The position numbers were made by a program, and so were the translations under genes. Shown here one piece after another: positions 43,072 through 64,000 of a stretch of 64,000 nt of DNA. How positions within the stretch are numbered: position 1 is the first letter of the stretch; the number at the start of each line of letters is the position of its first letter. Source of the stretch: Bacteroidetes bacterium SB0662_bin_6 (GTDB lineage: Bacteria > Bacteroidota > Rhodothermia > Rhodothermales > VXPQ01); assembly GCA_009839485.1 (NCBI GenBank), contig VXPQ01000046.1, forward strand, positions 124,001-188,000, read 5' to 3'. Under the pieces are notes generated by a model. That model saw only the letters and a program-made list of their open reading frames with translations, did not search any database and was not told where the DNA came from.

Positions 43072-44502
43072 CTACGCCAGCAATTCCAGCACCGGCTCTC
43101 CCAATCCCTCAGGCGTCGTGTAGATGGGGCGCCCCTCCACTTCGTAGTGCGTCTCCGGCGGGATACCCAGCGCATGGTAGATCGTCTGGTGTATCTGGTC
43201 GATGTAGACCGGCTCGCCGACGGTTACGCAAGGACGTTCATCGGCGGTTTGGCCGTAGACAAATCCCCGCTTGACACCGCCTCCGAAGAAAAGTATTGAA
43301 CAGCCGTCGGTGAAATGACGGTGCATGCCATAGTGCTTCATCGTTTCCACCGTATCCGGCACCTCCACCTGATCCCTCACCTTGGCCTCCGGGCGACCCT
43401 CCTGCATCATGTCCCGGCTGAATTCGCTGGCCAGTACGATGAGCGTCCGGTCGAGATGACCGCTTTCGTCCAGGTCCCGGACAAGTTGCGCCACAGGCCG
43501 GTCGATCATCTGTTTCATGTTGACCAGCCGGGTATGGCCGTTTTCGTGCGTATCCCAGCCCAGAAACGGTTCGTATTCGGTCGTTACGCTGACAAACCGG
43601 GCCCCATGCTGCACCAGCCGCTTCGCCAGTAAACAGCCGAGCCCGAACCGCCCGGTGTCATAGGCCGCATACTGCTCCGGGGGTTCGTTATGGAGATTGA
43701 ATGCCTGGGCTTCCGGTGAGCGCAGGAGACGATATGCCTGTTCCATCGAGCGCAACAGGGATTCTTTCTGGTAGTCGCTTCCCCGCTCGCCCAGCGGGCT
43801 ACTCTCGACAAGATCGCGGTACAGGGCGTGGCGCCGCTCGAACCGCCCGTTCGTCATGCCGGCAGGGGGACGAACGCTCTCCAGCCCACTGGCCGGATCA
43901 GGGATCAGAAAGGGACCATACTCGCTGCCGAGAAATCCTGCTGTGTGAAAAGCTTTCAATTCTTCGGCTTCCCCGACGGTGAATCGCTGCCCGATGTCGA
44001 TAAACGGCGGGATAGCCGGATTTATGGGCCCCAGTTCTTTGGCGATCCATGCCCCGAAATGAGGAAGCTGCACGGACTGCGGCGGCTCATAGCAGGTATG
44101 CCAGTGATACTGGTGCCGGGAATGCAGAATGAAGCCGAGGTCCGCCGCCCGGTAGGAGCGTAAAAGGCTTCCGCGATCCATCACCTCCCCGATAGCCTGT
44201 AATCCCTCGGAGAAAGAGACCCCGTCGACAACTGTCGGCAGGGCCGGGAAGGTACTCAGAATACGCTTGCTCTCCATGCCCGGCTCGAACGGCTCGAACC
44301 GCTTCGGATCGAACGTCTCGGTATGGGCCATGCCTCCGGCCATCCAGAGCAGGATAACGCTATCCGCAGTCGCCGTATTTCGCTGTTCCGCTCTCCCCTC
44401 GGAACGACACCCGCTCAGAAACGAGGCTGCTGGTACGGAAGCGGCCATGGCGGCAAGGCTCGCCGCCTGCATCTGCTTGAGAAAATCCCTGCGCGTAGTC
44501 AT
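43072..44502 (-). CDS. DUF1501-family protein with Tat signal
   Basis: 476 residues. The N-terminus MTTRRDFLKQMQAASLAAMA is a Tat signal (TRRDFLK) ending in a lipobox-like FLSGC, so it may be a Tat-exported lipoprotein. The body has the alkaline-phosphatase-like DUF1501 pattern: VILLWMAGGMAHTETFDPK, SRHQYHWHT, FLGWDTHENGHTRL and VLASEFSRD. The family is frequent in Planctomycetes and other marine bacteria and nearly always next to a PSD1/DUF1549-DUF1553 gene, as here, 6 nt downstream of it. The role is thought to be at the cell surface but is not known. Confidence 0.92.
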   Translation of the reverse strand: MTTRRDFLKQMQAASLAAMAASVPAASFLSGCRSEGRAEQRNTATADSVILLWMAGGMAHTETFDPKRFEPFEPGMESKRILSTFPALPTVVDGVSFSEGLQAIGEVMDRGSLLRSYRAADLGFILHSRHQYHWHTCYEPPQSVQLPHFGAWIAKELGPINPAIPPFIDIGQRFTVGEAEELKAFHTAGFLGSEYGPFLIPDPASGLESVRPPAGMTNGRFERRHALYRDLVESSPLGERGSDYQKESLLRSMEQAYRLLRSPEAQAFNLHNEPPEQYAAYDTGRFGLGCLLAKRLVQHGARFVSVTTEYEPFLGWDTHENGHTRLVNMKQMIDRPVAQLVRDLDESGHLDRTLIVLASEFSRDMMQEGRPEAKVRDQVEVPDTVETMKHYGMHRHFTDGCSILFFGGGVKRGFVYGQTADERPCVTVGEPVYIDQIHQTIYHALGIPPETHYEVEGRPIYTTPEGLGEPVLELLA

Positions 44503-44508
44503 CGAAAA

Positions 44509-47444: not shown

Positions 47445-49187
47445 TCACGGGGTTTTTACATGGACCGTCACGATATCGGTATCATGATATATCTGATGGC
47501 GAACCGAAGAGGCAACATGCCGCAGCAACCGCAGCGAAATTTCCCTCTCGACCGGCGCCCCGGCGGTTTGCTCGCCAAGCAGCGCCATCTGATCCTGAAG
47601 ATTTTCCTCCCCGGACGATGCGACAAACTCCAGAATCGCCTCGTCGCTCTCCTTGCGCGCAGCCAGAAGAAGCCGCCGCTGCCCGTCTTTTTCCTTCCCC
47701 TCGTCCCGGTCGAAAAGCGTAAGCAACGTTTCCTCGGCAGCGGCTTCAAGGCGCTCTCCCATCGCCCTGTCCCAGCCGCTGCGGGACGTGAACGTCACAA
47801 GAAACTTCCGTATTTCCGGTAAAGCGGATATGTCGAATGCCGCCTCCATCCGGCTGGGCCGGCGTTCCGTCAACTCCATGAACAGGGTCATGAGGATGGC
47901 CACAAGCCCCCCTGCCGTCATGCCGTTCTGAAAAATGCCGCCTGCAAACTCCGCGAAGTATTCCGGAAATATCACGCCGTTCTGAAAGCCGACACCGGCC
48001 CAGAATGCGACGCCGACCACAAGCGACTTGCGATAATCGATCCCGTCCTGAACGACAATTCTCATGCCGACCACGAATAGCATCGCCAGAAGGACGGCGA
48101 TATACGCCGCGGCGACCGGGCTCGGGATCGCCAGGACCCCGGCAATTGCCTTGGGAAGAAAAGCCAGCACAATAAATAGTATCCCGACAGCGACGCCGAC
48201 CCTGCGCGCGCCCACCCCTGTAAGTTCAGTGACCGCCACGCTCGTGGAATAGGTCGTGTTCGGAACAGTCCCTGCAAGCCCGGACAACAAATTGCCAAAC
48301 CCGTCCGCAGCCACCGCACCCTGCACTGCACGAAAATCCACCGCCCGAGGGGTACGCCAGGAAACACGCTGAATGGCGACGGCATCCCCAACCGTTTCGA
48401 TGGCGCCGATCAGGGTCACGAACACGAATGCCGGAAGGAGGGTCCAGAAAACCGGACCGAACGAAAGATCCATGCCCGGCCAGCCGCTCTGCGGAAAACC
48501 GATCCATGAAGCTTCTGCGATGCGGGCAGTATCATAAAGCCCGTAGAATCCGCCGACTACAGAACCCGCGATAACCCCGATGACAGGCGCCCAGAGTCGC
48601 AAGGTGCCCTTCGCTTTCAGGGCAATGCCGCTAATGCACAGTATGGTTGCAAGCGCGGTCATCGGGGCCGCCATTTCGGGAGATCCCTCCGGTACCTCAT
48701 GCAACATGTCGAAAATGATCGGCATGACCGTTACCGCTATGAGCATGACTACGGTCCCTGTAACGGTCGGGGTGAGAATTCTACGGAAGAGCGAGAGGCG
48801 CGCCGCAAGTGCGAACTGGAAAAGCGAGGAGATAATGACCAGGGTGGCGAGCATGGCCGGACCGCCCTCGACAAGGGCCGTGATACACACGGCGATAAAA
48901 GCCCCGGAGGTTCCCATCAGCAGCACATAGCCTGCGCCGATCCGGCCGAACCGGACCGCTTGCATTATCGTCGTTATGCCGCTGATCATGACCGCAGCAA
49001 AGACCGCCCAGGATAAAAAGGTCTCGGTTCCTCCAGCGGCCCGGATAACGATCATCGGAGTAAACACGATGCCGGCTATGCAAAGCACGGCGAGTTGAAA
49101 GCCCAGGCCGAAGGAAAGCGTGGTCGGAGGCGATTCGTCGGCCTGATAGCGAACGCCTGTGCGGGGGTTTGTCGTGTCCGTAGTCAT
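47445..49187 (-). CDS. NCS2-type (uracil/xanthine) permease fused to a degenerate HATPase-like domain, copy 1
   Basis: 580 residues from ATG 49187. Residues about 28-440 form a 13-14 helix transporter of the nucleobase-cation-symport-2 kind (MGTSGAFIAVCITALVEGG, VPNTTYSTSVAVTELTGVGARRVG, GMRIVVQDGIDYRK). The last 130 residues are soluble and resemble a serine-kinase/anti-sigma type HATPase: ALPEIRKFLVTFTSRSGW, RLEAAAEETLLTL where the N-box Asn would be, and SLRLLRHVASSVRHQ. The ATP-site asparagine and glycine-rich box are not evident, so it is probably a sensory or binding domain. A paralogue lies at 62340. The substrate could be a nucleobase or something unrelated exported with the polyketide; this is not shown by the sequence. 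Confidence 0.8.
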   Translation of the reverse strand: MTTDTTNPRTGVRYQADESPPTTLSFGLGFQLAVLCIAGIVFTPMIVIRAAGGTETFLSWAVFAAVMISGITTIMQAVRFGRIGAGYVLLMGTSGAFIAVCITALVEGGPAMLATLVIISSLFQFALAARLSLFRRILTPTVTGTVVMLIAVTVMPIIFDMLHEVPEGSPEMAAPMTALATILCISGIALKAKGTLRLWAPVIGVIAGSVVGGFYGLYDTARIAEASWIGFPQSGWPGMDLSFGPVFWTLLPAFVFVTLIGAIETVGDAVAIQRVSWRTPRAVDFRAVQGAVAADGFGNLLSGLAGTVPNTTYSTSVAVTELTGVGARRVGVAVGILFIVLAFLPKAIAGVLAIPSPVAAAYIAVLLAMLFVVGMRIVVQDGIDYRKSLVVGVAFWAGVGFQNGVIFPEYFAEFAGGIFQNGMTAGGLVAILMTLFMELTERRPSRMEAAFDISALPEIRKFLVTFTSRSGWDRAMGERLEAAAEETLLTLFDRDEGKEKDGQRRLLLAARKESDEAILEFVASSGEENLQDQMALLGEQTAGAPVEREISLRLLRHVASSVRHQIYHDTDIVTVHVKTP

Positions 49188-49485: not shown

Positions 49486-49716
49486 ATGACAGCAACAGAA
49501 AATCGACTCCAGGAACTTGCCAATGAGAACCTGAACATATCGGGTTCAGCCGATCTCGACGTCGGCCTCAGCGACTCCGATGTATCTTCAATGGACGCGG
49601 TTGCATTCATTAAACTGGTTGGCAAGAAGTTCAACGTGGAGATTCCTCCTGAAGACTTCGCGCAAATTACCAGCTTGCGGGCCCTTGGTGCATATCTCGA
49701 TGCCCAGTCGGGGTGA
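49486..49716 (+). CDS. Discrete acyl carrier protein
   Basis: 76 residues, the size of a free ACP. The expected phosphopantetheine site falls in DSDVSSMDAVAFIKLVG: a serine precedes Met in place of the usual DSL, as in some polyketide ACPs. The four-helix pattern and acidic character fit (VEIPPEDFAQITSLRALGAYL). An AGGAG 12 nt upstream of ATG is a weak ribosome site. It should be activated by the PPTase encoded directly downstream. The PKS encoded opposite ends after KS-AT without an ACP, so this protein is the natural carrier for its second module or for chain release. It is not the housekeeping fatty acid ACP, whose DSL core differs. Confidence 0.85.
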   Translation: MTATENRLQELANENLNISGSADLDVGLSDSDVSSMDAVAFIKLVGKKFNVEIPPEDFAQITSLRALGAYLDAQSG

Positions 49717-49778
49717 GCACGCGGCATGCAGGGATACAAGAATCGTCGGGCTGTGAGACGCTCGATCCCTACGGAATC

Positions 49779-50513
49779 ATGGCATCTCCCTCTATTGACG
49801 AATGCTGGTGGCATTCCTTCAATAGAATAGACGATGTAGTTGTCCTGCATGTTGATCTGACACCCAATGCGGCGCGTGAAGCATGCGCTCTGGCGTGGCT
49901 TGACGAGGCGGAAAAGGCGCGTTTGCGCCGTTATCGATATGCCCGTCCCCGACGGGAATCCGCCTTATGCCGTGCGGCGCTGCGTGCTGTGCTTTGCGAT
50001 CGGCTTGGCTGCAGAAACGATCAGCTCGCATTCGATACTTCCAGACACGGCAAGCCGTTCGCTGTCTTGCGCGGGGCGCCGGCGTCTATCAGTTTCAGTG
50101 TCAGCCATAGCGGCAGGCACGGATTGATTGCGCTTGCGCCGTCAGGGCGCCTTGGCGTGGACGTGGAAGAACGCGTTGCCCGTCACGATCCTGACGGAGA
50201 GATCAGAATGATCTTTGCTCCGAGGGAGCGAGCTGAACTTGCTTCGGCAACCGGAGATCGGAAATTCCACCTGTTCTTTGCACTCTGGACCATGAAGGAG
50301 GCATTGATCAAGGCGCTCGGAACAGGTTTTGCCCTGGATATGTCACGATTCGAAATTCCGCCGCAGATGTATCTTGGTGCGAGCACGAGCATATTCAGGT
50401 TTCCTCATCTGCCGACAATCAGATGGCGGCTCGACAATCTGGGCAACGACCGTTTTGCGGCTGCGGTAGCTCATGAATTAGTCCCGAACCCTCCTGCCAG
50501 TCCTGTTCGTTAG
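49779..50513 (+). CDS. 4'-Phosphopantetheinyl transferase (Sfp type)
   Basis: 244 residues from ATG 49779; GTG 49713 is in frame and overlaps the ACP stop as GTGA, which would couple translation but adds a head unlike the family. Motifs: ISFSVSHSGRHGLIAL, GVDVEERV with the Mg-binding Asp and Glu, and FFALWTMKEALIKALGTGF with the W-KEA signature. It transfers phosphopantetheine from CoA to carrier proteins, here presumably the discrete ACP and the PKS ACP domain. Sfp-type enzymes accompany secondary metabolism rather than fatty acid synthesis. Confidence 0.93.
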   Translation: MASPSIDECWWHSFNRIDDVVVLHVDLTPNAAREACALAWLDEAEKARLRRYRYARPRRESALCRAALRAVLCDRLGCRNDQLAFDTSRHGKPFAVLRGAPASISFSVSHSGRHGLIALAPSGRLGVDVEERVARHDPDGEIRMIFAPRERAELASATGDRKFHLFFALWTMKEALIKALGTGFALDMSRFEIPPQMYLGASTSIFRFPHLPTIRWRLDNLGNDRFAAAVAHELVPNPPASPVR

Positions 50514-50551
50514 CAATACGGCGGAAAATATGTGCTGCAATCGCCTGAGGT

Positions 50552-50579
50552 GTACCGAAAGTTCTTTGCTTTCGCGTAC
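50552..50579 (+). other. Hairpin between the PPTase and hydrolase genes
   Basis: GTACCGAAAG (50552-50561) pairs with CTTTCGCGTAC (50569-50579) with one bulged C and a 7-nt loop. There is no T-tract. It lies 39 nt after the PPTase stop within a 131-nt gap and may separate or stabilise the two parts of the operon. Confidence 0.35.
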
Positions 50580-50644
50580 CTTCTATGTGAGTTAATATCG
50601 TTTCCGTTGAACGAGGGCTTTGCCGGAAGACCGGGTATTGGATC

Positions 50645-51562
50645 ATGACCTTAGAAACCGCCTGGGAAATACCCGACCCTGTTTCCGCGGACGATGTCCT
50701 CATGGAGGACAACTCCATCATTACGCTGCGGCGCCATGGGTATCCGGAGGGGCAGCGACTCGTTCTGAGTCACGGTAACGGCTTGGCGATCGATCTTTAT
50801 TACCCCTTCTGGTCATTGCTTGCCGACGATTTCGACCTGATCATCTATGATTTGAGGAACCATGGCTGGAATGCGGTCGGGACCCAGAATGAGCATAATG
50901 TGCCGAGCATCATTAGTGACCAGACCCGTCTTCTTGAAGGGATTGACAACCACTACGGGAAAAAACCGAAATTTGGCGTATTTCATTCCCTGTCGGCATT
51001 GACGACCCTCATGTCGCCTGGACAGGGCAAGGAATTTGTCGCACGCATTCTGTTCGACCCTCCTCTATGTAAGCCGCCTCATGTTACGGAGGAAGAATTC
51101 GATGCCGCTGCGGCCTACGTAGCCGCCATGACGCGAAAACGCTCCGCCAGATTCCAGAGGCCGGAAGACTTCGCAGAGCTTCTTCGCTACATGCCGGCCT
51201 TCCACCGCGTAATGCCCGGGATTTTTGACCTGATGGCGCAGACTACACTTCGCAAATCCTCGAACGGGCAGGATTACGAGCTCAGATGTCCGCGAGAATA
51301 TGAAGCGCAGATCATCGAGTATGTCAGGAGTTTTTCCGTACTGGTGGACCTTGACACCATGCTTTGCCCGACCAAAATTGTCGGAGCCGATCCCACCCTG
51401 CCCTATTCATATCTGCCGACCATTGACCTCAGCCATATTATGACGGTGGATTACGACTTCCTGCCGGAAACGACCCATTTTCTCCCGCTTGAGCAACCGG
51501 AAGAATGCGCAAAGGCTGTGCGCGAATTTATTGATGCCGTCAACAGAGGCGAATATTCGTGA
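50645..51562 (+). CDS. Alpha/beta hydrolase, possible chain-releasing enzyme of the PKS cassette
   Basis: 305 residues with an alpha/beta hydrolase core: the oxyanion strand LVLSHGNGLAIDLY, IIYDLRNHGWN, a nucleophile elbow GVFHSLSAL in place of GxSxG (Ser within HSLS), and a C-terminal HFLPLEQPEECAKAV carrying the catalytic His. The acidic member is probably the Asp of CPTKIVGADPT. No signal peptide. Its place beside an ACP and PPTase and opposite a PKS that lacks a thioesterase makes it a candidate for hydrolysing or transferring the finished chain. Substitution in the elbow and a large cap region mean a thioesterase role is inference; it could act on another ester. Confidence 0.75.
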   Translation: MTLETAWEIPDPVSADDVLMEDNSIITLRRHGYPEGQRLVLSHGNGLAIDLYYPFWSLLADDFDLIIYDLRNHGWNAVGTQNEHNVPSIISDQTRLLEGIDNHYGKKPKFGVFHSLSALTTLMSPGQGKEFVARILFDPPLCKPPHVTEEEFDAAAAYVAAMTRKRSARFQRPEDFAELLRYMPAFHRVMPGIFDLMAQTTLRKSSNGQDYELRCPREYEAQIIEYVRSFSVLVDLDTMLCPTKIVGADPTLPYSYLPTIDLSHIMTVDYDFLPETTHFLPLEQPEECAKAVREFIDAVNRGEYS

Positions 51563-51636: not shown

Positions 51637-51678
51637 CAGGCCCCGCAGAGCGCCGCTGCACAGTGGTAACAGGCCCTA
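51637..51678 (-). repeat. Stop-codon-anchored 42-bp repeat, copy 3
   Basis: Reads in the PKS direction and begins on the TAG stop of the PKS gene. It is identical to copy 1 at 39 of 42 positions (GGCCTGTTACCACT, then GTGCAGCGG, then GCTCTGCGGGGCCTG). Unlike the other two, similarity stops at the end of the unit. If the element supplied the TAG, insertion here would have cut the PKS off after its second AT. Confidence 0.8.
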
Positions 51679-54600
51679 TTTCGACGTATCGATCCAGTAT
51701 CGCCGGCGCTGGAACGGATAGCCCGGCAGAGAAATCCGGCGCCGTGTTTCCCCCGCGAACAATCCGGCGAATGCAACCGGGAGCCCCGCTTCGTACGCTG
51801 CTGCAATCGCCGCCACGAACCCGTCCCCGCCATGTATCGGCGACCCGTCTCCGGATGGTTTCTGCAGATTCGACAGCACAAGCGGCGATTCCGCAGCATT
51901 CCTGTTCGTGCCCTTGCCTGCCGTTTTCTTCGGCCGGACTTTATCTGTCTTTGGTCCCAATATTGAATGCGAACCAATCTGCACAATCACCTCCACCCCC
52001 AGATCGGCCAGCGTCTCCACACACTTGTCGAATACTTCCGGTTCTTGCGCCTGCCGGCGCCAGTATGCCGCATCGAGTGTTTCACCTGACGCCACGGCCC
52101 GACCTGTCACACTACTCACGACCGTGAGAGAGGGGGAAGCAATGATTGCACCTGTTAGCGCAGCTTCCAACTCGTCTGCTACAGGCTGCCGTTGTTCTGC
52201 ATCCGCGGAAACTGCCGCTGCCGCACCCCTTGCCGCTGCTAACCGTAATCCATCTTCCAAACCGAACACCCCTGCTGCCTGAGCCGCCGCAATCTCCCCA
52301 AGGTCGTGTCCAACCACCACGCTCGGTTGAATCCCCACGCTCGACCAGAGCGCCGTTAGCCCGCATTCCAGCGCGTAGATAGCAGGATAAGCCCAGGCAG
52401 CATCGTCCATATTTCCCGCGGCCCCCGGTCGGTTAAACATCACGTCCAGCAAGGAAAGCCCCCGCTCCTCCTGAAATGCTTCTTCGCAGCGATCCAAAAC
52501 CGCCCGTACCACCGGTTCGCTATCGTATAACTCTTTGCCCGAATCGCTCCATTGGGCGTCTTTTCCGGCAAAAGCAAAGGCTATTTTCGTCGTTGCCTGC
52601 GGCTCCTGATCCGCACGTATTTCTGCATCCGCTTCTGCAAGTGCACGAAGCCTTTCCCTAAGCGAGTCGGCATCCCGGAACACGATACCGGCACGATGTG
52701 CGAAATGGCTGCGCCCCACACCTGCTGTCCAGGCCATATCCGAGAGCGTCGGATATGCAGCGGCGCCATTCGAAGAAAACGCTCCGACATGCTCGTCGAG
52801 CCAGACCAGATAGCGCCCCGCCAGCTCCCGGAGCGCCTCATCCGACTTCCCTGATAACGGCAATAATCGCACAGTTCTCTCAACGAGGTCTTGCTCCGCC
52901 AGGGGCTGCCGGGCAACCGACTCTTGCAGGGAATCAGGCAAACAGGCCGCAACAGATCGCTCGGAACCCGTGGGCCCATGCCCTGCATCGGGTGTGGATA
53001 GAACACCCTCGGAAGATTCATATCCTTCCACGACAATGTGCGCATTCGTACCCGAAAGTCCGAAGGAACTTATCCCTGCCCTTGGCGGCCGGTCAGAATG
53101 GGCCGGCCACGTTGTCGCCTCGGAGGTGACCTGTACCGGCAGTTGCCCCCAGTCAAGATGCGGGCTTGGATTGTCAAAGTGTAAATGTTTGGGAATGACC
53201 CCTTTGTTCATTGCAAGAACGGCCTTGATCAGGCTTGCAACCCCCGCCGCGCACTCAAGGTGGCCGATATTCGTCTTTACCGAACCAATCAGCAGCGGGC
53301 GCTCCGCTGCCCGCTCCCTGCCGTAAACTGCCGCCGCCGCCTGCACTTCGATCGGGTCGCCCAAACCCGACCCCGCGCCGTGCGCCTCCAGATAATCGAC
53401 TTCCGCGGGAGAAATTCCTGCTTGCAACAATGCCTCCTCAATCACTCGCTCTTGCGATGGCCCGTTCGGAATGATCAGCCCCGCACTTGCTCCATTCTGA
53501 TTTACCGCGGAGCCCCGGATCACCCCCCATATCCTGTCTCCATCCGCTCTCGCTTCACGCAACCGCTTCAGGACCACCATCCCACAACCCTCCCCCCGTA
53601 CAAAGCCGTCTGCAGCCGCATCGAAGGTGCTGCACTGCCCGCTCGCAGACAACATCCCGAGCTCCATCATAAATCGTGTGATTTCCGGAGACAAAACCGC
53701 GCTCACCCCCCCGGTGAGAGCCATGTCGACTTCTCCCTGGCGCAATGCGGAAAGCGCCTGATGTATCGCCACGAGAGACGATGCGCACGCCATGTCGACC
53801 GGCACGGCCGGACCGGTAAGACCCAAAACAAAAGCAATCCGGCCGGCCGTTACGCTCATGGTGGTGCCGAGGTACCCATGCGTTTCCCCACTGGCAGCTG
53901 CGACATCCCGATAGTCGCCGTTGCCGACCCCGACATACACCCCGGTGCGGCTACCTTTGATACCGTCGGGCTCCATCCCCGCATCTTCGATAGCATGCCA
54001 GGTAGTCTCCAGCAACAGACGCTGTCGCGGGTCCATCATCCGCGCTTCGATGGGCGCAATACGGAAGAACTTTGCGTCAAATTTGTCAATTTCTTCGACG
54101 AATGCTCCGCGACGGGAAATAGCATCCGTAGAAGCAGGATCTCCGGCCACGCCGTCCCAGGAGCCGTTATCCCGGCGTCCGTCCGTTACCGCGTCCACTC
54201 CCGCTTCGAGCTGGCGCCAGAAGGTTGAAATGTCCGGAGCACCGGGGAATCGGCACGCCATACCCACAATCGCTATCCCGTTGTCCTCTCCTTCTGCTTG
54301 CACCTGGGGCTGTGGCTCGGGTCGAACCTGCGGAGGAGGGGCATCCCCGACTTCGCCAAGTTCTCCGACCAGATGAGCGGCGAGTGTAGCGATGTCCGGG
54401 TAATCGAACACGACCGTGTTGGAGGCCACGTATTCTCCGGCAAATGCCCGATTCAGGCGGTTCCGTAATTCCACCGCCATAAGCGAGTCCATCCCCAGGT
54501 CGAAAAACCCTACCGTAGCCGCCGGCGCCGTGGATAGCCTCAGCACTGCCTGCACTTCCTGCTGCAGGAAGGAAACGAGCAGTTCTTCGCGTCCCGCCGG

Positions 54601-57600
54601 GGTTCCCCTCAACCGGGACAGCAGGTCCTCTGACGAGGTGCGGGCATCGGTTTCGGCCTCCGGAGCAACAGACAGCAAGTCCTCCAGCAGTGGAGGGCGG
54701 TCTTCCGCCGCCTCTTCATACACTGCCCAATCCATCGACATTACCACGGAATTCGTGGCGTCCTGACGCACCAGTTGTTCGAATGCCCGGAGGCCCTGCT
54801 GCGGGGTAAACCAGCGGCCTCCGAGTGCTGTACGCCGGCGATCGATCCGCTCGCGTTGTTCCGCGGCTTCACCAATCTCTGACCACGCTCCCCAGGCAAT
54901 AGCCTGTCCGGGGAGTCCCTGTGCGCGGCGGTGACCAGCGAGTTGGTCCAGAAAGGCATTGGCCGCGGCATGGTTTGCCTGGCCCGGATTGCCCATCACG
55001 CCAACCCGACTCGAAAAGAGGACGAAGAGATCCAGATCCCGGTTTTCTGTCGCCCGGTGCAGATGCCAGGCACCCAGTATCTTCGGCCAGAGCACCGTTT
55101 CGAATCGCTCCCAACTCTGGTTGGTCAGTGCGCCGTCCGACAGTACGCCCACACTGTGGATTACACCTCCGAGCGGTGGTAGCGTCGCATCTATCCGTTC
55201 CAGCATCTGATCTATTGCGGCGGCATCCGTCACGTCCGCAAGTTCCACCTGCACCGTCACGCCGCGCTCCCGCAACTTGCGGATCGTCTCCTCTGCTTCG
55301 GCATCCGGCGCCCGGCGTCCGTTTAACACGATCGCTCCTGCTTCGTGGTCTGCGAGCCAGTCGGCCACTGCACATCCGATCCCTCCCAGACCGCCGGTCA
55401 CCAAATAGGTTCGATCCTGCCGCAAACGCCCTGTCATGAGCGGGGGCGGCGTCACGACGATCTTCCCGAGGTGCCGGGCCGATCGCATGAAACTCAATGC
55501 GGCCCCGGCTTCGGTGAGCGGCCACCTGCTGTGGATAATCGGTTTCAGTTCTCCTGCCGAAAGACCCTTCATCACACCCCGCAGGACTTTCCCCACCCAC
55601 GCCGGTTCGGTTTTTTTGAGGACATCCAATGCCAGGATGGAATAGCCTACATCCGGACGCACAGCCGCCATCTCTTCCTCGCTATAGATGTCTCGTCTGG
55701 CCATTTCCACAAACCGGCCGCCCTGCCTGAGACAGGACAGACTCGTTTCGATGAAACCCTCCCCCGTCAGGCTGTTCAGTACTACGTCCACCCCCGCGCC
55801 GTCTGTGGCTTCGAGGATTTCCTGGCCGAACGCTGTCTGGCGGCTGTCGAATATGTGCTCTACGCCCAGTGACCGGAGATATGCCTGCTTCGGTGCGCTT
55901 GCGGTAGCGAAGACCTCTGCTCCAGCAGCTTGCACCAACTGGATGGCCGCCAGGCCGACACCGCCCGCACCCGCATGAATCAGTACCCGTTCGCCAGCCT
56001 CAAGCCCGGAATATTCAAAGGACAGCGCAGCCGACACAAAGGCGCTTGGCACCGTCGCAAGTCCACTCACGGAGAATCCGAATAGCGCAGGCGCCACCAG
56101 TTCCTCCCGTGTGATCATTTGGGGCCCGAACGCACCGAAACCTAATCCGACCACATGGTCACCGACCGAAACGGTCGAGACATCGGAGCCTACCTCGAGG
56201 ATGCGGCCACACATCTCTCTGCCCAACAGTCCTTCTTCGATGAAGCCGAGTGATCGGAATACATCCCAGAAGTTGAGTCCGGCCGCGTCGACAGCCACGC
56301 GAACTTCCTTCGGCTCGAGAGGACGTGCCGGCAGCGGCTGGACATACGGTCTGTCGAACACCCCGGCAGGATCCGGAGCGAGCACCCATTCCATCTCCTC
56401 CGGGAAAGCCAGCCGTTCCGGCCCGTCGCCCGCTCGAACGAGGCGCGCCACCTGACGGCGCCCCGATCGATACGCGATGTGATTTTCGGAATCAGGATAT
56501 AAGAGTTCTTCGGTGAGATCGGGCTCCGGCGCCATCTCGCCGGGGTCCAGATCAATCATCCTGGGCTGCAGATGCACCGCTTCACGAGCTATAGCCTTGC
56601 CGAAGCCCCAGAGCGCTGCGCCCGCGAGTTCTCCACCCCGTTCCCGCTCCAGCACCTGGGCGCCCCGTGTGATCATCCAGACGCCATTGGAGGGGACCAC
56701 ATCGGAATCTGCGACGCCCTGAACCAGGGCCAGTGCGCTCGCTCCCGCTCGCCTCACGTCTTCGGCTATTTCCTCGGTTGTAGTCTGTTCCCCATGACCG
56801 TCCAGTCCCACAAGATGCACCACACCGCTGAGCGGTACATCGTCAGGCAAACCGGTCACAAGCGCTCCCCAGGACTCGCGCTGATCCATTTCCACGGCCG
56901 TCCTGAAAACCCCGGAACCAGCCGCTGCCGACCTCTCGTCTTCGGCGGCTTCGCTGCCCGCCAGCACGACGGTCTGGTTCCGCGCAGCCAAATCGACTGC
57001 CAGCTTCTCTGCAACCCCTCCCTCGTCCGCTACGAGAATCCACATGCCTCCCGGCTCTGTCACCTCAATCGGACCTTGCGCTACAATCACACCTTTATCC
57101 GGTGTTTTCGACGAGTCGGATTCATCTACTCCCAGAAATTCCACTTCCCCGAAACCCGCGTCACCGAGGGCCTGGCGCCACACGGCGGGGCTTGCCAGTG
57201 CGTGATGCGGGCGGTAGTCGTCGGCAAACCGCCACCAGCCATCCAACTGACCGAACGTCAGGTCCATCCAGCCCAGGCCACTAAGGTTCTCGAGAGCGAT
57301 CAACTGTCCGGATGGGGCAAGCAGGTCCCGGCAGTGTCCCAGCGTTTCCTCCAGATATCGCGTTGCATGCAGCACGTTGGACGCGATCATCAGATCGTAT
57401 CCATGGGAGTCGAAACCCTGTTCGATCGGGTCCTTCTCGATGTCCAGCGGACGGTACTCAATACACCCGCCCCCATCTCCAAAGCGCGCCTCCGCCTCGG
57501 AAAAGAAGCCTGCGGAGATATCCGTATAGACGTAGTCGAACTGTCCTTCGGGAAGTTCCGGAAGTACGGATGCGGTTGCAGATCCGGTGCCCGCCCCGAC

Positions 57601-60600
57601 CTCGATCACCCTGAGGCGCCGTCCTTCCGGCAATGCAGCCACCAGCGCCCGAACCGCCTCTCCCAGCATCCGGTTCGCCGCACGCGCCACGGGCGCCTTC
57701 AGATAGAGATCGGCCGCCGTGGGTTCTCCGCTGCTGAACAGTAGTGTCAGGGGATCTTCCCGGCCGCGAAGCACCTCGGCCAGCGCACGCCCGGAGCGCC
57801 GAAACAGCCCGATCTCGGTCTGACCATGGGAATAGAGACCCATCATACGGGTGGCAAACTCCTCAAGGTCAACAGGCATGTGCTCAGGCAATGCATCCTC
57901 CGGTCCCACGATCACGACAAACCCGTCGTCCGTCTCTTCCACCACGCCCGATTTGGCAAGCATCTCGAAGAGCCGCCGGAAGAGACGCTTGTGCTCGGGA
58001 AGGACGTTCAACTGGCTTCGCAACGCCTCCGTGTCCACGGTTTCGCCCGCCTGGCGCCGCCAACCCAGCTCTTCCAGCGTCGCGAGCGCACGGGACCGGG
58101 ACCATCGCTCGAGGTCTGTAAGCAGACGGTCCCGGTCTTCGGGATCTACGCCTGCGTCCGTCAGATACCCGGCGAACAATTGCGAGCCGGCCTCGACAAC
58201 CGCCGGGCTCGGGAAGAAGTCTGCGGGGACCATTCCGGGTGGAAGGGCGTGCTCGCGCCACACCACCTCATACAGCAGATCCTGCACTCTTTCGATCGCC
58301 GAGAGCAGGGAAGCCCGTGTCGCCCTTTTGACCGTGTATCCGCTCAGGCGACCGAGCAGCGCCCCATTCAGATCGTAGATGCGCATCTCGCCGCTCAGAA
58401 CCTCGGCAGGCTCGCCCGAATCGGTCTTCCCGTTGGTTGATGCATCGCTCAGGCGTACATGGCAGACGACCCGATCAGGCAACGGCCCCGCCAGCCACAG
58501 CCGTTCCCAGCCGAACGGCAGATAGGTGGCCCCAGCCTCGGTCCCTGCCAGATTGCGCGCTGCGCCCACCACCTGGAAGCAGCCGTCCAGCACGAGCGGA
58601 TGCATATCCAGTCCGTGCCTGGTCAGTGTTTCAGGAAGAGACACCTCACCCAGGGCCTCGCCCGGACGAGACCAAACCCTCCCAAGCGTGCGGAAAAACG
58701 GACCCAGGTCAACCCCCGTACTCGCTCTCTGGCGATAGTAGCCCGCCACATCTGCCGGCGAGAGATTGGCCTTCAGACTTTCAAAATCGATCCGCTCACC
58801 CGCTTCCGGATCCGGGGCGCCCGGCAACAGGCGACCTTCCACATGAAGCATCCATTCCCCTTCACTTCCCTTACTGAATATCTGAAAATCGTGCGACGAC
58901 GCCTGCTCGGAAGCGTTGAGCACAACCTGCATTTTCCGGCCCTCTTCCCCCTCTTCTTCCTCCTTCTCGAAGACAAGCGGGTTATATAACTGCATGTTCT
59001 CTACGACGATCGATCCGCTCCCCTCAAGAAGTGACGCCGCACAGGCCATAGTGCCGTAGAGCGCACCGGGGGCGACGACCCGGCCGAATACCCGGTGGTC
59101 GTTCATCCACACCGGATCGGAAGCAAACACTTCCGTCTCGAATGTGATTTCGCCGCGGGCGGACTCGTGCCGCATGCCCAACAAGGGATGCCCCGAACCC
59201 CGGCGCTGGCGCTTCGGCGCCTCGATCCAATGGCGTTGGCGCTGGAAAGGATAACCCGGCAGCGATATCCGTCGCCGCGTCTCTCCCGCGAACAGCCCCG
59301 GAAAATGAATCGGGAGTCCCGCCCGATAGGCCTCCGCGACGGCCGTTGTATATGCGCGGTCGGCTTCCGATTGCGATACTTTGGAAGAGGGCCGCAGCAA
59401 GCTCGACAAAACTACGGGCGGATCGCCTGCCGTATCGGGCCAGGCCAGGGTCGCCATCGTAGCCAGTACCGAGTGCGGGCCCATCTCCACCACCATATCG
59501 ACCCCGAGGTCCGACAGCGTCTCAATACTTGGAGCAAACGCTACCGGCTCCCGGGCATGCCGCTTCCAGTACGCTCCGTCCAGCGCTTCGCCGGAATTCA
59601 CCGCTCGACCGGTCAGATTACTGACCAGGGTCAGAGAGGGGGGCTTGATTGTGACTTCATCAAGAGACGCTTCCAGCGCATCCAGAGCCGGTTCCACCAG
59701 GGCGCTGTGGAATGCCTTGGCCGTGTTCAGCCGCCTTACCTGAATTCCCTCTGATTCGAAGTGCTTTGAGAAGGCCTCGATCTTTTCGACCGGGCCGCTG
59801 ATCACTTGGTGGGTTCCGTTGTTCGCCGAGATGCTTACCTCAATCCCGGCGGATGCCGCATTCAGGGCCTCGATTGCCGGCGCCACTCTTTCGGGCGGTG
59901 CGAAAACCGCGGCCATGGCGCCCTCTTCGATTCCTGACAGCAGGGTTCCTCGTGTGGCCGCAAACCGCATACCATCCTCCAGGCTGAATACCCCTGCCGC
60001 CTGCGCCGCAGCGATTTCCCCGACACTGTGCCCCATCACTACGTCGGGCCTGATCCCCACACTCGCCCAGAGTGCCGTCAGCGCGCACTCCAGCGCGTAG
60101 AGGGCCGGCTGCTCCCATGCCGTGTCGTCCAGTTGCCCTTGCTCTTCGGCCCGGCCGAACATTACATCCAGCAGGGAGGCCCCTCTTGCATCCCGGAATA
60201 CCGCCTCGCAACGATCCAGAACCGCTCTCGCCACCGGTTCCGTCTCGTAGAGTGTCTGCCCCATGCCGACCCACTGGCTTCCTTGCCCGGTATATACAAA
60301 CGCTATCCGGGAGGGGGTTTGCGCCGCAGTGGGCATGCCTGCCTCTGCAAGGGTACTCAGACCCTCGCGCAGCGACGCGGGGTCGCTGAATACGACGCCT
60401 GCCCGGTGGGTAAAATGACTGCGTCCCACGCCCGCCGTCCACACCATGTCCGCAAGGGCCGCCTCGCTGTCGGAAGCAAATTCGTCGGCATGTTCGTCGA
60501 GCCATGCAAGGTACCGCCCCGCCAGGTCTCGAAGCGCCCCATCGGATTTACCCGAAAGCGGCAGAAAACGGGTTTCGCGCAGGCCGCACTCTTTCTCCGG

Positions 60601-62034
60601 CAACGGCAGATCCGCCGCCATCCCCGGCGCCGTAACCGCCACTTTCCTTGCAGGGCCCCCGAACAACTGTTCATCAGCGGGCGCAGCGTCCGGAGGACAA
60701 TATTCCTCCACTAAAAGATGGGCGTTCGTTCCGGATATCCCGAAGGAATTCACCCCCGCGAGTCGCGGTCGTCCGTCGCGGCGCGGCCAGTCCATCATGG
60801 ACGATGTAACCTGCAATGGCAGCCGGTCCCAATCGAGGCTCGGGTTGGGATCCCGGAAATGGAGGTGTTTGGGAATCACCCCCCGTTTCAGCACCAGTGC
60901 CGCTTTGATCAGTCCGGCCACACCTGCAGCCGATTCCAGATGACCGATGTTGGTTTTCACCGAGCCAATCAGCAGCGGATTATCCAATTCGCGCCCCTTT
61001 CCGTAGACAGCGGCCACCGCATTGATCTCGATCGGATCACCGACGGTCGTCCCGGTCCCATGCGCCTCCAGGTAATCCACTTCCAAGGGAGAGATTCCTG
61101 CGTCCGACAGCGCCGTTTCGATCACCTCTTCCAGCGCGGGTGTGTTCGGGACCGTCAGCCCGACGCCGGTCCCGCCGTGGTTCACCGCCGCGCCCCGAAT
61201 CACCGCCCAGATTCGATCGCCGTCCGCCTCGGCCTCGCTCAGCCGCTTCAGCACCACGACTCCGCAGCCCTCCCCCCGCACGTACCCGTTGGCGGACGCA
61301 TCGAATGTCTTGCACTGCCCATCCGGGGACAGCATCATCGCATCCGCGCGCAGCTCATAGATGAGGCCGTTCAGGATAGCCTGGACGCCGCCTGCAATGG
61401 CCAGATCGGCCTTGCCCTGCTGCAGGTCCGCCACCGCATCATGGACTGACACCAGGGACGACGCACATGCAGCATCTATCGCCTTTGCCGGTCCCGTGAG
61501 ACCCAGTACGAACGAGACTCTTCCACTGGCGCCGTTGAGGTTGGTGCCGCTAAGGGCGTAGAGGCACCTGGCAGCCTCTGCGGGCTTGGTTGACTCCAGT
61601 ACCAGCATTCGGTACTCGTCGTTGCTGATCCCGGTGTATACGCCCGTGCGGCTCTCTCTCAGCCTGTCCGGATCTATTCCCGCATCTTCAAGGGCTTCCC
61701 AACTCGTTTCCAGCATGAGTCGCTGTTGCGGATCCAGCAGCTCTGCCTCTACCGGAGAAATCCGGAAAAACTCCGCATCGAACAGGTCAATGTCGTCAAC
61801 GAACGCGCCGTAACGACACCCTTCGCTTTGCACTGTGTCGTCAGAGAAAATCTGGCCCCAGCGCCCTGGTCCGGAACCGGGCACACCCTCCTTTACGGCG
61901 TTCCCGCCGTTTTCAAGAAGCTTCCAGAAAGCCGCAATATTCTCTGCGCCGGGAAACCGGCACGCCATGCCTACAATCGCTATGGGTTCTCCAGAGCGAA
62001 AAACCTCTCCTTTTGCCAAGCGCTTCCCGGTCAT
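51676..62034 (-). CDS. Type I polyketide synthase, KS-AT-DH-MT-ER-KR-ACP-KS-AT(inactive)
   Basis: 3452 residues. Module 1: KS (about 15-445; Cys190 in DAACASS, His325 in HGTGT, His365 in NIGH); AT (about 575-880; Ser670 in GHSVGE, KAFH at 773-776, malonyl-like); DH (about 945-1235; His980 in DHRVFGRVVAPG, Asp1150); C-methyltransferase (about 1330-1650; VIEVGAGTGSATA); structural KR part (about 1660-1870); ER (about 1880-2195; HAGAGGVGLAAIQL); KR (about 2205-2430; TGGLGGIG, but His2355 replaces the usual Tyr in GQANxAAAN); ACP (Ser2517 in GMDSL). Module 2: KS (Cys2750, His2885, His2925) and an AT with GHDLG and a deletion; then the post-AT linker YPFQRRRYWI and stop. There is no loading module or thioesterase. 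The order is that of iterative reducing synthases that make methyl-branched chains. Discrete ACP, PPTase and hydrolase lie opposite. Expression probably comes from a permease-type promoter at 62214. Confidence 0.95.
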   Translation of the reverse strand: MTGKRLAKGEVFRSGEPIAIVGMACRFPGAENIAAFWKLLENGGNAVKEGVPGSGPGRWGQIFSDDTVQSEGCRYGAFVDDIDLFDAEFFRISPVEAELLDPQQRLMLETSWEALEDAGIDPDRLRESRTGVYTGISNDEYRMLVLESTKPAEAARCLYALSGTNLNGASGRVSFVLGLTGPAKAIDAACASSLVSVHDAVADLQQGKADLAIAGGVQAILNGLIYELRADAMMLSPDGQCKTFDASANGYVRGEGCGVVVLKRLSEAEADGDRIWAVIRGAAVNHGGTGVGLTVPNTPALEEVIETALSDAGISPLEVDYLEAHGTGTTVGDPIEINAVAAVYGKGRELDNPLLIGSVKTNIGHLESAAGVAGLIKAALVLKRGVIPKHLHFRDPNPSLDWDRLPLQVTSSMMDWPRRDGRPRLAGVNSFGISGTNAHLLVEEYCPPDAAPADEQLFGGPARKVAVTAPGMAADLPLPEKECGLRETRFLPLSGKSDGALRDLAGRYLAWLDEHADEFASDSEAALADMVWTAGVGRSHFTHRAGVVFSDPASLREGLSTLAEAGMPTAAQTPSRIAFVYTGQGSQWVGMGQTLYETEPVARAVLDRCEAVFRDARGASLLDVMFGRAEEQGQLDDTAWEQPALYALECALTALWASVGIRPDVVMGHSVGEIAAAQAAGVFSLEDGMRFAATRGTLLSGIEEGAMAAVFAPPERVAPAIEALNAASAGIEVSISANNGTHQVISGPVEKIEAFSKHFESEGIQVRRLNTAKAFHSALVEPALDALEASLDEVTIKPPSLTLVSNLTGRAVNSGEALDGAYWKRHAREPVAFAPSIETLSDLGVDMVVEMGPHSVLATMATLAWPDTAGDPPVVLSSLLRPSSKVSQSEADRAYTTAVAEAYRAGLPIHFPGLFAGETRRRISLPGYPFQRQRHWIEAPKRQRRGSGHPLLGMRHESARGEITFETEVFASDPVWMNDHRVFGRVVAPGALYGTMACAASLLEGSGSIVVENMQLYNPLVFEKEEEEGEEGRKMQVVLNASEQASSHDFQIFSKGSEGEWMLHVEGRLLPGAPDPEAGERIDFESLKANLSPADVAGYYRQRASTGVDLGPFFRTLGRVWSRPGEALGEVSLPETLTRHGLDMHPLVLDGCFQVVGAARNLAGTEAGATYLPFGWERLWLAGPLPDRVVCHVRLSDASTNGKTDSGEPAEVLSGEMRIYDLNGALLGRLSGYTVKRATRASLLSAIERVQDLLYEVVWREHALPPGMVPADFFPSPAVVEAGSQLFAGYLTDAGVDPEDRDRLLTDLERWSRSRALATLEELGWRRQAGETVDTEALRSQLNVLPEHKRLFRRLFEMLAKSGVVEETDDGFVVIVGPEDALPEHMPVDLEEFATRMMGLYSHGQTEIGLFRRSGRALAEVLRGREDPLTLLFSSGEPTAADLYLKAPVARAANRMLGEAVRALVAALPEGRRLRVIEVGAGTGSATASVLPELPEGQFDYVYTDISAGFFSEAEARFGDGGGCIEYRPLDIEKDPIEQGFDSHGYDLMIASNVLHATRYLEETLGHCRDLLAPSGQLIALENLSGLGWMDLTFGQLDGWWRFADDYRPHHALASPAVWRQALGDAGFGEVEFLGVDESDSSKTPDKGVIVAQGPIEVTEPGGMWILVADEGGVAEKLAVDLAARNQTVVLAGSEAAEDERSAAAGSGVFRTAVEMDQRESWGALVTGLPDDVPLSGVVHLVGLDGHGEQTTTEEIAEDVRRAGASALALVQGVADSDVVPSNGVWMITRGAQVLERERGGELAGAALWGFGKAIAREAVHLQPRMIDLDPGEMAPEPDLTEELLYPDSENHIAYRSGRRQVARLVRAGDGPERLAFPEEMEWVLAPDPAGVFDRPYVQPLPARPLEPKEVRVAVDAAGLNFWDVFRSLGFIEEGLLGREMCGRILEVGSDVSTVSVGDHVVGLGFGAFGPQMITREELVAPALFGFSVSGLATVPSAFVSAALSFEYSGLEAGERVLIHAGAGGVGLAAIQLVQAAGAEVFATASAPKQAYLRSLGVEHIFDSRQTAFGQEILEATDGAGVDVVLNSLTGEGFIETSLSCLRQGGRFVEMARRDIYSEEEMAAVRPDVGYSILALDVLKKTEPAWVGKVLRGVMKGLSAGELKPIIHSRWPLTEAGAALSFMRSARHLGKIVVTPPPLMTGRLRQDRTYLVTGGLGGIGCAVADWLADHEAGAIVLNGRRAPDAEAEETIRKLRERGVTVQVELADVTDAAAIDQMLERIDATLPPLGGVIHSVGVLSDGALTNQSWERFETVLWPKILGAWHLHRATENRDLDLFVLFSSRVGVMGNPGQANHAAANAFLDQLAGHRRAQGLPGQAIAWGAWSEIGEAAEQRERIDRRRTALGGRWFTPQQGLRAFEQLVRQDATNSVVMSMDWAVYEEAAEDRPPLLEDLLSVAPEAETDARTSSEDLLSRLRGTPAGREELLVSFLQQEVQAVLRLSTAPAATVGFFDLGMDSLMAVELRNRLNRAFAGEYVASNTVVFDYPDIATLAAHLVGELGEVGDAPPPQVRPEPQPQVQAEGEDNGIAIVGMACRFPGAPDISTFWRQLEAGVDAVTDGRRDNGSWDGVAGDPASTDAISRRGAFVEEIDKFDAKFFRIAPIEARMMDPRQRLLLETTWHAIEDAGMEPDGIKGSRTGVYVGVGNGDYRDVAAASGETHGYLGTTMSVTAGRIAFVLGLTGPAVPVDMACASSLVAIHQALSALRQGEVDMALTGGVSAVLSPEITRFMMELGMLSASGQCSTFDAAADGFVRGEGCGMVVLKRLREARADGDRIWGVIRGSAVNQNGASAGLIIPNGPSQERVIEEALLQAGISPAEVDYLEAHGAGSGLGDPIEVQAAAAVYGRERAAERPLLIGSVKTNIGHLECAAGVASLIKAVLAMNKGVIPKHLHFDNPSPHLDWGQLPVQVTSEATTWPAHSDRPPRAGISSFGLSGTNAHIVVEGYESSEGVLSTPDAGHGPTGSERSVAACLPDSLQESVARQPLAEQDLVERTVRLLPLSGKSDEALRELAGRYLVWLDEHVGAFSSNGAAAYPTLSDMAWTAGVGRSHFAHRAGIVFRDADSLRERLRALAEADAEIRADQEPQATTKIAFAFAGKDAQWSDSGKELYDSEPVVRAVLDRCEEAFQEERGLSLLDVMFNRPGAAGNMDDAAWAYPAIYALECGLTALWSSVGIQPSVVVGHDLGEIAAAQAAGVFGLEDGLRLAAARGAAAAVSADAEQRQPVADELEAALTGAIIASPSLTVVSSVTGRAVASGETLDAAYWRRQAQEPEVFDKCVETLADLGVEVIVQIGSHSILGPKTDKVRPKKTAGKGTNRNAAESPLVLSNLQKPSGDGSPIHGGDGFVAAIAAAYEAGLPVAFAGLFAGETRRRISLPGYPFQRRRYWIDTSK

Positions 62035-62339: not shown

Positions 62340-64000
62340 TTACGTGCTCACACGCACGGTCACGATATCTGTCTCGTGATATTGCTGGTGGCGAACCGAG
62401 GACGCGAGATGTCGCAACAGCCGAAGTGACACTTCCCGCTCCATGGGCGCTTCTTCCGTGTGTTCGCTGAGTAGCGCGATCCGATCCTGAAGATTCTCCT
62501 CCCCTGAAGAGACAACGAATTCAAGCACGGCGTCCTCTTCTTCCCTGTACGCCGTAAGACGCAGGTGCCGTGTGCTGTGCACCCCTTCCGCACCCTCTGG
62601 TGGAATGAGTGTCAGCAAGGTCTCCTCCGCGGCGGCGTCCAGGCGGCCTGCCATTGCCGTGTCCCAGCCGTTGCGGGACGCGAACGCACCGAGAAAGTCC
62701 CTGATCTCTGACAGCGCGGAAATATCGAATACCATCTGTATCCGACTATGGCGGGGCCTCGTGAGCTCCAGGAACAGCGTCAGGAGGATGGCTGTGATAC
62801 CGCCGGCGTTCATCCCGTTCCGCAAAAGACCGCCTGCAAACTCCGAGATGTACTCGGGAAATATCATGCCGCTCTGGAAGCCGACCCCGACGAGGAACGA
62901 GATGCCGACAACTATGCCTTTGCGATAATCGATTCCGTCCTGAACGACTATTTTAATCCCGACCAGGAAGAGCGCCGCCAGCATTACGATGAAATAAGCG
63001 GCGATGACCGGGCCCGGTATCGCCAGGACGATGGCGAGCACTTTCGGAAGAAACGCCATGATAATGAACACGGCCCCGGTGGCAACCCCGACGTTGCGGG
63101 CGCCGACCCCGGTGAGTTCCGCCATCGATACGCCCAGAGTGTTGGCCGTATTCGGTATCGTACCCGTGAGACCGGAAATCAGGTTGCTTATGCCATCCAC
63201 GGTCATGGCGCCTTCCACCGCCCGGAAATCCACCGCCCGGCTTTTGCGCCACGAGATACGCTGGATGGCGACGGAACTGCTGATCGTGCGGATGGAACTG
63301 ACTACGGCGACAAGCAGGAATGCGGGAAGAAGCGCCCAGAAAGCGGGCCCAAAGTCGAGGGCGAAACCCGGCCATTCGTTCGCCGGCAGGCCAATCCATG
63401 AAGCCGCAGTAATTCGATCAAACTCGTATAGCCCGAAAAAGCCGCCAATTACCGAGCCGGCGACCACACCGATAACCGGCCCCCATAGACGTAACACCCC
63501 GGTCGCCTTTAGTGTGATGCCGCTGATGATGAGCAGCGTTACAAAGGCGCTGAGCGGAGCAGCCAGCGCCGGGGCCCCGGGCACCGGCAACAGATTGAAG
63601 ATGGCCGGCATTATAGTAATCGGTATCAGCATGATTATCGTTCCCGCGATAGCCGGGGTCAGAAACCGCTGAAACAGCGAAAGCCGCCAGGAAAGCACAA
63701 GGGGAACGAAGGATGAGATGACGACCAGGGTGGCGAGCAGTGCCGGTCCGCCTTCGGCGACTGCCGTGATACAGACCGCGATGAAAGCTCCGGACGGCCC
63801 CATAATGAGCAAATAACCCATGCCGATCCGGCCGATGCGAGCCGCCTGCAAAATGGTGGCTACCCCACCAACCGCGACCGTGGCGAACACGGCCCACGAC
63901 ACATAGGCTTCGGTCGTATCCGCCGCGCGCATCACGACGGTCGGGATCAGTATGATGGCGGCTACACTGAGCGCAGCAAGTTGCAAGCCAAGGCCGAAGG
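62340..64000 (-). CDS. NCS2-type permease fused to a degenerate HATPase-like domain, copy 2 (partial, runs off right edge)
   Basis: 553 residues are visible; the frame is open through base 64000 (FGLGLQLAALSV, matching FGLGFQLAVLC near residue 27 of copy 1), so only about the first 25 residues are missing. The transporter core (MGPSGAFIAVCITAVAEGG, VGIKIVVQDGIDYRKG) and the C-terminal soluble domain (ALSEIRDFLGAFASRNGW, RLDAAAEETLLTL, SLRLLRHLASSVRHQ) correspond to copy 1 throughout. The tail is at least as conserved as the membrane part, which argues that it is functional. It is separated from the PKS by leader copy B. Confidence 0.8.
   Translation of the reverse strand, partial: FGLGLQLAALSVAAIILIPTVVMRAADTTEAYVSWAVFATVAVGGVATILQAARIGRIGMGYLLIMGPSGAFIAVCITAVAEGGPALLATLVVISSFVPLVLSWRLSLFQRFLTPAIAGTIIMLIPITIMPAIFNLLPVPGAPALAAPLSAFVTLLIISGITLKATGVLRLWGPVIGVVAGSVIGGFFGLYEFDRITAASWIGLPANEWPGFALDFGPAFWALLPAFLLVAVVSSIRTISSSVAIQRISWRKSRAVDFRAVEGAMTVDGISNLISGLTGTIPNTANTLGVSMAELTGVGARNVGVATGAVFIIMAFLPKVLAIVLAIPGPVIAAYFIVMLAALFLVGIKIVVQDGIDYRKGIVVGISFLVGVGFQSGMIFPEYISEFAGGLLRNGMNAGGITAILLTLFLELTRPRHSRIQMVFDISALSEIRDFLGAFASRNGWDTAMAGRLDAAAEETLLTLIPPEGAEGVHSTRHLRLTAYREEEDAVLEFVVSSGEENLQDRIALLSEHTEEAPMEREVSLRLLRHLASSVRHQQYHETDIVTVRVST

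Follow-up and report, generated by a model that had tools for sequence, protein, structure and literature searches.

How does an acyl chain leave a polyketide synthase (PKS) whose second half has neither a carrier nor a releasing domain? The question arises in a 64,000-nucleotide stretch of DNA from Bacteroidetes bacterium SB0662_bin_6 (hereafter the window), in which a type I PKS ends in a second ketosynthase and acyltransferase (KS2-AT2) next to genes for a free acyl carrier protein (ACP), a phosphopantetheinyl transferase (PPTase) and an alpha/beta hydrolase (Table 1). A preliminary description had proposed these three products, and had described the PKS as short of a second ACP and of a releasing domain; both points hold, as Pfam domain matches identify the three proteins, which are conserved among relatives, and the domain scan recognised nothing in the PKS after its last AT. 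The GTG start of the PPTase lies in a 4-base overlap with the ACP stop, and the PPTase ends 132 bases before the hydrolase starts, so the trio looks like a single transcription unit. The PKS gene is convergent with it, the PKS stop lying about 113 bases past that of the hydrolase, and two NCS2-type permeases bound the cluster on both sides.

Table 1. Features of the PKS cluster, in window coordinates.
Feature	Position	Strand	Characteristics
NCS2-type permease A	47445..49187	-	SupE-like by position and kind
Free ACP, type-II-like	49486..49716	+	76 aa; attachment at Ser35, in SSMD; Pfam PP-binding E 4e-11
PPTase, Sfp-type	49713..50513	+	ACPS E 1e-17 plus AASDHPPT_N
Alpha/beta hydrolase	50645..51562	+	305 aa; Abhydrolase_6 E 2e-12; FHSLSA elbow; triad S115-D249-H278
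Type I PKS	51676..62034	-	3452 aa; KS1-AT1-DH-MT-ER-KR-ACP-KS2-AT2; AT2 degenerate
AT2	51955..52587	-	GHDLGE replaces GHSxGE; small subdomain deleted; predicted inactive
KS2	53020..54288	-	Cys-His-His intact; HGAGS replaces HGTGT
PKS ACP (cis ACP)	54355..54597	-	sole ACP of PKS; GMDSLM
KR	54835..55422	-	NHAAAN
C-methyltransferase domain (MT)	57055..57837	-	GAGTGS
AT1	59395..60312	-	GHSVGE + AFHS; intact
KS1	60700..61995	-	DPQQR + HGTGT motifs; Cys-His-His intact
NCS2-type permease B	62340..63986	-	C-terminal HATPase_c_2-like stretch, below cut-off

At 62343-62771 (minus strand) permease B resembles HATPase_c_2 weakly (E 7e-4, under the cut-off), and the protein is perhaps a transporter joined to an anti-sigma-like kinase fold; for permease A a weak RsbA-type match is all of that sort. 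Beyond permease A, the minus strand at 43072-47394 encodes a PSCyt1/PSCyt2/PSD1 protein and a DUF1501 protein, a pair familiar from Planctomycetes.

We file the cluster as sup-type (sponge symbiont ubiquitous PKS) on the DPQQ and HGTGT motifs of its PKS, its permeases and its cross-phylum spread, rather than on comparison with any supA sequence. Primers that yielded supA target DPQQ and HGTGT (PMC4245539), which KS1 of the window carries as LDPQQR and EAHGTGT; HGTGT is present in 6/6 KS1 rows. Sup enzymes, which are widespread type I PKSs, have been described as small and monomodular and proposed as candidates for making mid-chain-branched fatty acids (PMC4245539); the window PKS has an MT domain. 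The neighbouring permease recalls SupE (ABE03914), so named in an account that also has the sup PKS dominating sponge libraries (PMC3908369), and the likeness is one of position and kind. The occurrence of SUP clusters in sponges independently of bacterial taxonomy (PMC9426513) has its counterpart in the 26 loci from unrelated phyla found here. The five parts of the present cluster (PKS, ACP, PPTase, hydrolase, permease) would also equal in number the names supA-E. The window differs from this scheme in its inverted trio and its two permeases. Such trans supply to a cis-AT synthase had been called uncommon in the preliminary description, which is wrong as to distribution, since clusters of this sup kind are widespread. 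That cluster is already known and, in the parts of the literature covered, remains uncharacterised. No description of the trio appears in the titles, abstract openings and passages surveyed.

Two other classes were considered and set aside. The swf cluster also pairs a sponge-symbiont monomodular PKS with a SupE-like permease nearby, and comprises SwfA (KS-AT-DH-ER-KR-ACP), SwfB (reductase-sulfotransferase) and SwfC (radical SAM) (PMC3908369); SwfA lacks MT, KS2 and DPQQ in that account, whereas the window PKS has all three, and the swf passages do not mention a trio of free ACP, PPTase and hydrolase. Nor does the window PKS belong with the trans-AT PKSs: AT1 is intact, with GHSxGE and its Ser kept in 23/23 copies, the window's counted, and AT2 alone is degenerate. 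Among solved structures the window KR aligns best with mycocerosic acid synthase (MAS), an iterative enzyme without a releasing domain that is not known to have an MT, a KS2 or a free ACP partner.

Scanning the genome collection for close relatives of the hydrolase gave the 26 named loci, which span many phyla, those named in titles being Latescibacterota, Acidobacteria, Chloroflexi, Gemmatimonadetes, Dadabacteria, Binatota, Nitrospinota and Gammaproteobacteria; we take the MAGs that carry them to be sponge-derived, a matter on which the titles are silent. PKS domains lie inside the stretch at 21 of the 26, and at 17 of these 21 the PKS, ACP, PPTase and hydrolase follow in that order on one strand, with a permease match next on the opposite strand at 13 of the 17 (the ACPs of L025 and L034 were detected by profile only). 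The placing of the trio opposite the PKS, noted in the preliminary description, is therefore true of the window but a local rearrangement of what is usually a co-directional downstream block. Order or strand differs in the window, L015, L018, L035 and L036. Two same-genus genomes (G001, G002) hold the same parts reordered, with both permeases within the cluster, and at L097 the hydrolase and the PKS converge, which is also their arrangement in the window. For L026, L029, L031 and L039 (the last from the same genome as L097) a sup-type PKS lies elsewhere in the assembly; none was found in the genome of L033, a locus of 3.4 kb.

Co-occurrence of these genes across the class supports the view that the trio and the PKS form a functional set, as the preliminary description had supposed. 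With a sup-type PKS scored as a KS2 match of at least 62% identity, 12 of 244 genomes carry one; the hydrolase accompanies it in 12/12, the PPTase in 12/12 and the free ACP in 11/12, also where the genes lie on different contigs (PKS and hydrolase in G201, G202 and G203). The PKS of G010 and G154 is more remote (48-50% identity) and did not count as sup-type in the Fisher tests below, and G005 has a PKS fragment alone, on a 3.8-kb contig. The hydrolase occurs in the same 12 genomes and G004, the PPTase in the same 12 and in G056, G204 and G044, and both the sup-type PKS and the hydrolase are missing from 230 of the 244 genomes. Fisher tests of PKS against hydrolase give p 2e-18 over the class and 2e-4 within the two families concerned, both optimistic because the genomes are related. 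Genomes G056, G204 and G044 belong to a genus (g15) whose other members carry the set, and their joint lack of PKS, hydrolase and ACP suggests that it comes and goes as a unit. In G038 (L006, L088, L089) the free ACP is frameshifted and stops or frameshifts also interrupt the PKS, PPTase and hydrolase, damage that could reflect either decay of the whole set or assembly error. We found neither a trio that is common without the PKS nor a hydrolase that falls among unrelated esterases. It seems very improbable that the trio constitutes a separate lipid or ACP module which lies beside the PKS by chance or through shared mobility: such a module could account for the variable order and strand and for the PPTase of three genomes without this PKS, but the reading is strained by co-occurrence in 12/12 genomes, unlinked ones included.

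Within the PKS, the two domains of the second half have fared differently. The AT2 nucleophile, across 24 copies including the window's, is Gly in 21, Asp in one (the window) and Ser in two, so that the Ser is lost in 22/24. The two Ser copies (L028 and L097) match the 307-residue AT2 of the window, itself without the small subdomain, over 297 and 294 residues, and thus probably lack the subdomain too. AT2 is missing altogether from L030 and L035 and gives no match in L095 and L096, four further loci; the L015 copy, at the locus edge, was left unscored, and of the 18 C-termini chosen, the C-terminal alignment includes the 13 in which NIGHLE was matched. With nucleophile lost and subdomain absent, AT2 is predicted to be inactive. 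KS2, in contrast, keeps its Cys-His-His residues in 20/20 copies and HGTGT in 0/20 (KS matches over 300 columns), and since HGTGT is lost throughout, KS2 may not decarboxylate. In a maximum-likelihood tree, which includes duplicates of two loci (L015/L056 and L005/L077), all 20 KS2 sequences form one clade (100/99) beside a KS1 group (90/85), both joined at 95/99; KS2-AT2 appears to be an old duplicate of KS1-AT1, formed by one internal duplication with AT decay afterwards. Every locus read to its end leaves KS2 without a cis ACP. A fused KS2-AT2-ACP protein, sought as evidence of partnership, was absent from the loci read. Kinship of KS2 with discrete type II KSs, suggested by whole-protein NCBIfam matches, was rejected, as KS1 and KS2 score alike when scanned separately. 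The predicted KS2-AT2 structure (mean pLDDT 43) was left out of the argument.

One could read this pattern as that of a vestigial duplicate whose sole remaining use is to scaffold the dimer. The free ACP would then carry a starter or act as acceptor in concert with the cis ACP or KS1, and the hydrolase would edit or release from the cis ACP. On this view the four loci without AT2 reflect relaxed constraint on module 2, and the loss of HGTGT from every KS2 would fit as well; what such a scaffold does not predict is a catalytic triad preserved in all 20 copies across phyla despite AT2 decay. We consider this account fairly unlikely, and the behaviour of the free ACP bears on it further.

The attachment Ser of the free ACP is present in 28/28 full-length rows, and L006, a partial row, has it too. 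It shares 16% identity with the cis ACP, against 47% among free ACPs and 75% among cis ACPs (L006, with its partial ACP, being omitted), and so does not look like a module ACP that was cut off. Among the 15 loci having all eight core domains, distances of KS2 and free ACP correlate at r 0.76, with a partial correlation of 0.59 given AT1, DH and ER (p 0.0002); the partial values of the free ACP with AT1 and ER are 0.02 and 0.01. This covariation may stem from physical linkage, since KS2 lies next to the trio in most loci. Across seven rearranged or unlinked loci, a subset of our own choosing and without a permutation test, KS2 and free ACP correlate at 0.74, compared with 0.43 for KR and free ACP, and the hydrolase tracks KR (0.75) above KS2 (0.63). 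This last value favours a scaffold role for KS2-AT2 with release from the cis ACP, while covariation of the free ACP with KS2, and not with AT1, ER or KR, runs counter to it. Taken together, the closer covariation with KS2 than with module-1 domains lends modest, circumstantial support to a partnership between KS2 and the free ACP. Because AT2 is dead, elongation by KS2 would require AT1 or a FabD-type enzyme to load the free ACP. Genomes G200, G202 and G203 (L121-L123, L125-L127) each carry the free ACP twice; in some of them one copy adjoins the PKS and the other the hydrolase.

The hydrolase has the altered nucleophile elbow that had been remarked on from the letters: FHSLSA retains the Ser nucleophile with both Gly of GxSxG absent, and an FHSxSA-like elbow occurs family-wide. 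S115, D249 and H278 are found in 33/34 rows, the exception being a lone paralogue in G004 with Ser changed to Ala; one hydrolase analysis omits L032 (stop in the chosen range), L018, L023, L033, L005, L006, L009 and the partial L038 and L039. An AlphaFold model (pLDDT 80.8) has the alpha/beta hydrolase fold, with insertions of helices between strands, and its top structural match is the acyl-CoA hydrolase MpaH' (Z 25.6, rmsd 2.8, 284 aligned), with (acetamidomethylene)succinate hydrolase (Z 25.2, rmsd 2.6, 260 aligned) and the curacin thioesterase (Z 22.1, rmsd 3.3, 255 aligned) also among the matches. The fold shared with CurM thioesterase and MpaH', at 14-17% identity in the alignments, is not diagnostic, lactonases match as well, and as numerous esterases score within a few Z units the substrate cannot be named from the fold; a thioesterase role is allowed by the model. 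The plasmid collection gave just two remote hydrolases (27-31% identity), the one from Agrobacterium beside molybdopterin-type oxidoreductase genes. Paralogues without an adjacent PKS occur on C11 of the window's own genome and in G004 and G003; for this second paralogue (L012 on C11, L010, L011/L013) the 19-kb stretches read gave no PKS match. By inspection, the G004 hydrolase and the split G003 hydrolase are nearer the C11 copy than the cluster copy, and the second paralogue may be decaying, by the Ser to Ala change in G004 and the split in G003.

A small, discrete hydrolase that is unlinked in some genomes would also suit a proof-reading (type II) thioesterase, in a scheme where KS2 acts as an acyltransferase without condensation and transfers the completed chain onto the free ACP as lipid donor, the product being an acylated lipid and not a free acid. 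KS2 without HGTGT, though with its His kept, and a module 2 without a working AT for extender loading are both compatible with such a transfer. Yet the decarboxylation His-His pair of KS2 is intact, and no lipid-acceptor acyltransferase was recognised among the eight neighbouring ORFs scanned, so that we regard this scheme as distinctly unlikely.

Upstream of KS2, module 1 (KS1-AT1-DH-MT-ER-KR-ACP) would, to judge from its domains, build a reduced, alpha-methyl-branched acyl chain iteratively. AT1, with GHSVGE and AFHS, is presumably malonyl-type by the usual rule. In the KR (54835-55422, minus strand), NHAAAN carries His at a position occupied by Tyr in the solved KRs compared; 25/26 relatives likewise carry His, and this type of motif is known from other PKS KRs. 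L016, a Gemmatimonadetes cluster, is 91-94% identical to the window PKS in MT, ER and KR and 71% in KS2, a contrast compatible either with a mosaic or with a strongly constrained module core.

Our best explanation, to which we give about an even chance, is that in this sup-type cluster the free ACP serves KS2 in trans and chain release falls to the hydrolase. KS2, catalytically equipped, would accept the acyl chain borne by the cis ACP; the adjacent free ACP, primed by the PPTase encoded next to it, would partner KS2 either as malonyl carrier for one last condensation or as receiver of the finished chain; and the hydrolase would liberate from the free ACP an acid that the permeases may export. 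This is the simplest account of a KS2 that has neither a cis ACP nor a complete-looking AT, in genomes with a free ACP nearby or elsewhere, and since the second half of the synthase lacks a loading domain and a carrier, the free carrier probably stands in for the lost parts. More tentatively, and at somewhat less than an even chance, the sup-type PKSs may constitute a KS-terminated iterative cis-AT class, in which a duplicated KS with a dead AT uses a dedicated free ACP in trans for a last condensation or hand-over, with release by a dedicated hydrolase, kept across many sponge-bacterial phyla.

The window thus adds a further sup-type member, whose gene set is ordinary for its cluster. Sup PKS genes are reported to be dominant among the PKS genes of high-microbial-abundance sponges (PMC4245539), and their product is unproven in the literature covered. 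The roles of the parts bear on how the chain leaves, with the KS2 Cys, the free ACP Ser and the hydrolase Ser as key residues, and the dead AT2, the absent ACP and the travelling free ACP, PPTase and hydrolase tell which proteins need to be co-expressed for a product to be obtained. If the proposed class is real, the sup-type product would be, for example, a methyl-branched beta-keto acid or a methyl ketone.
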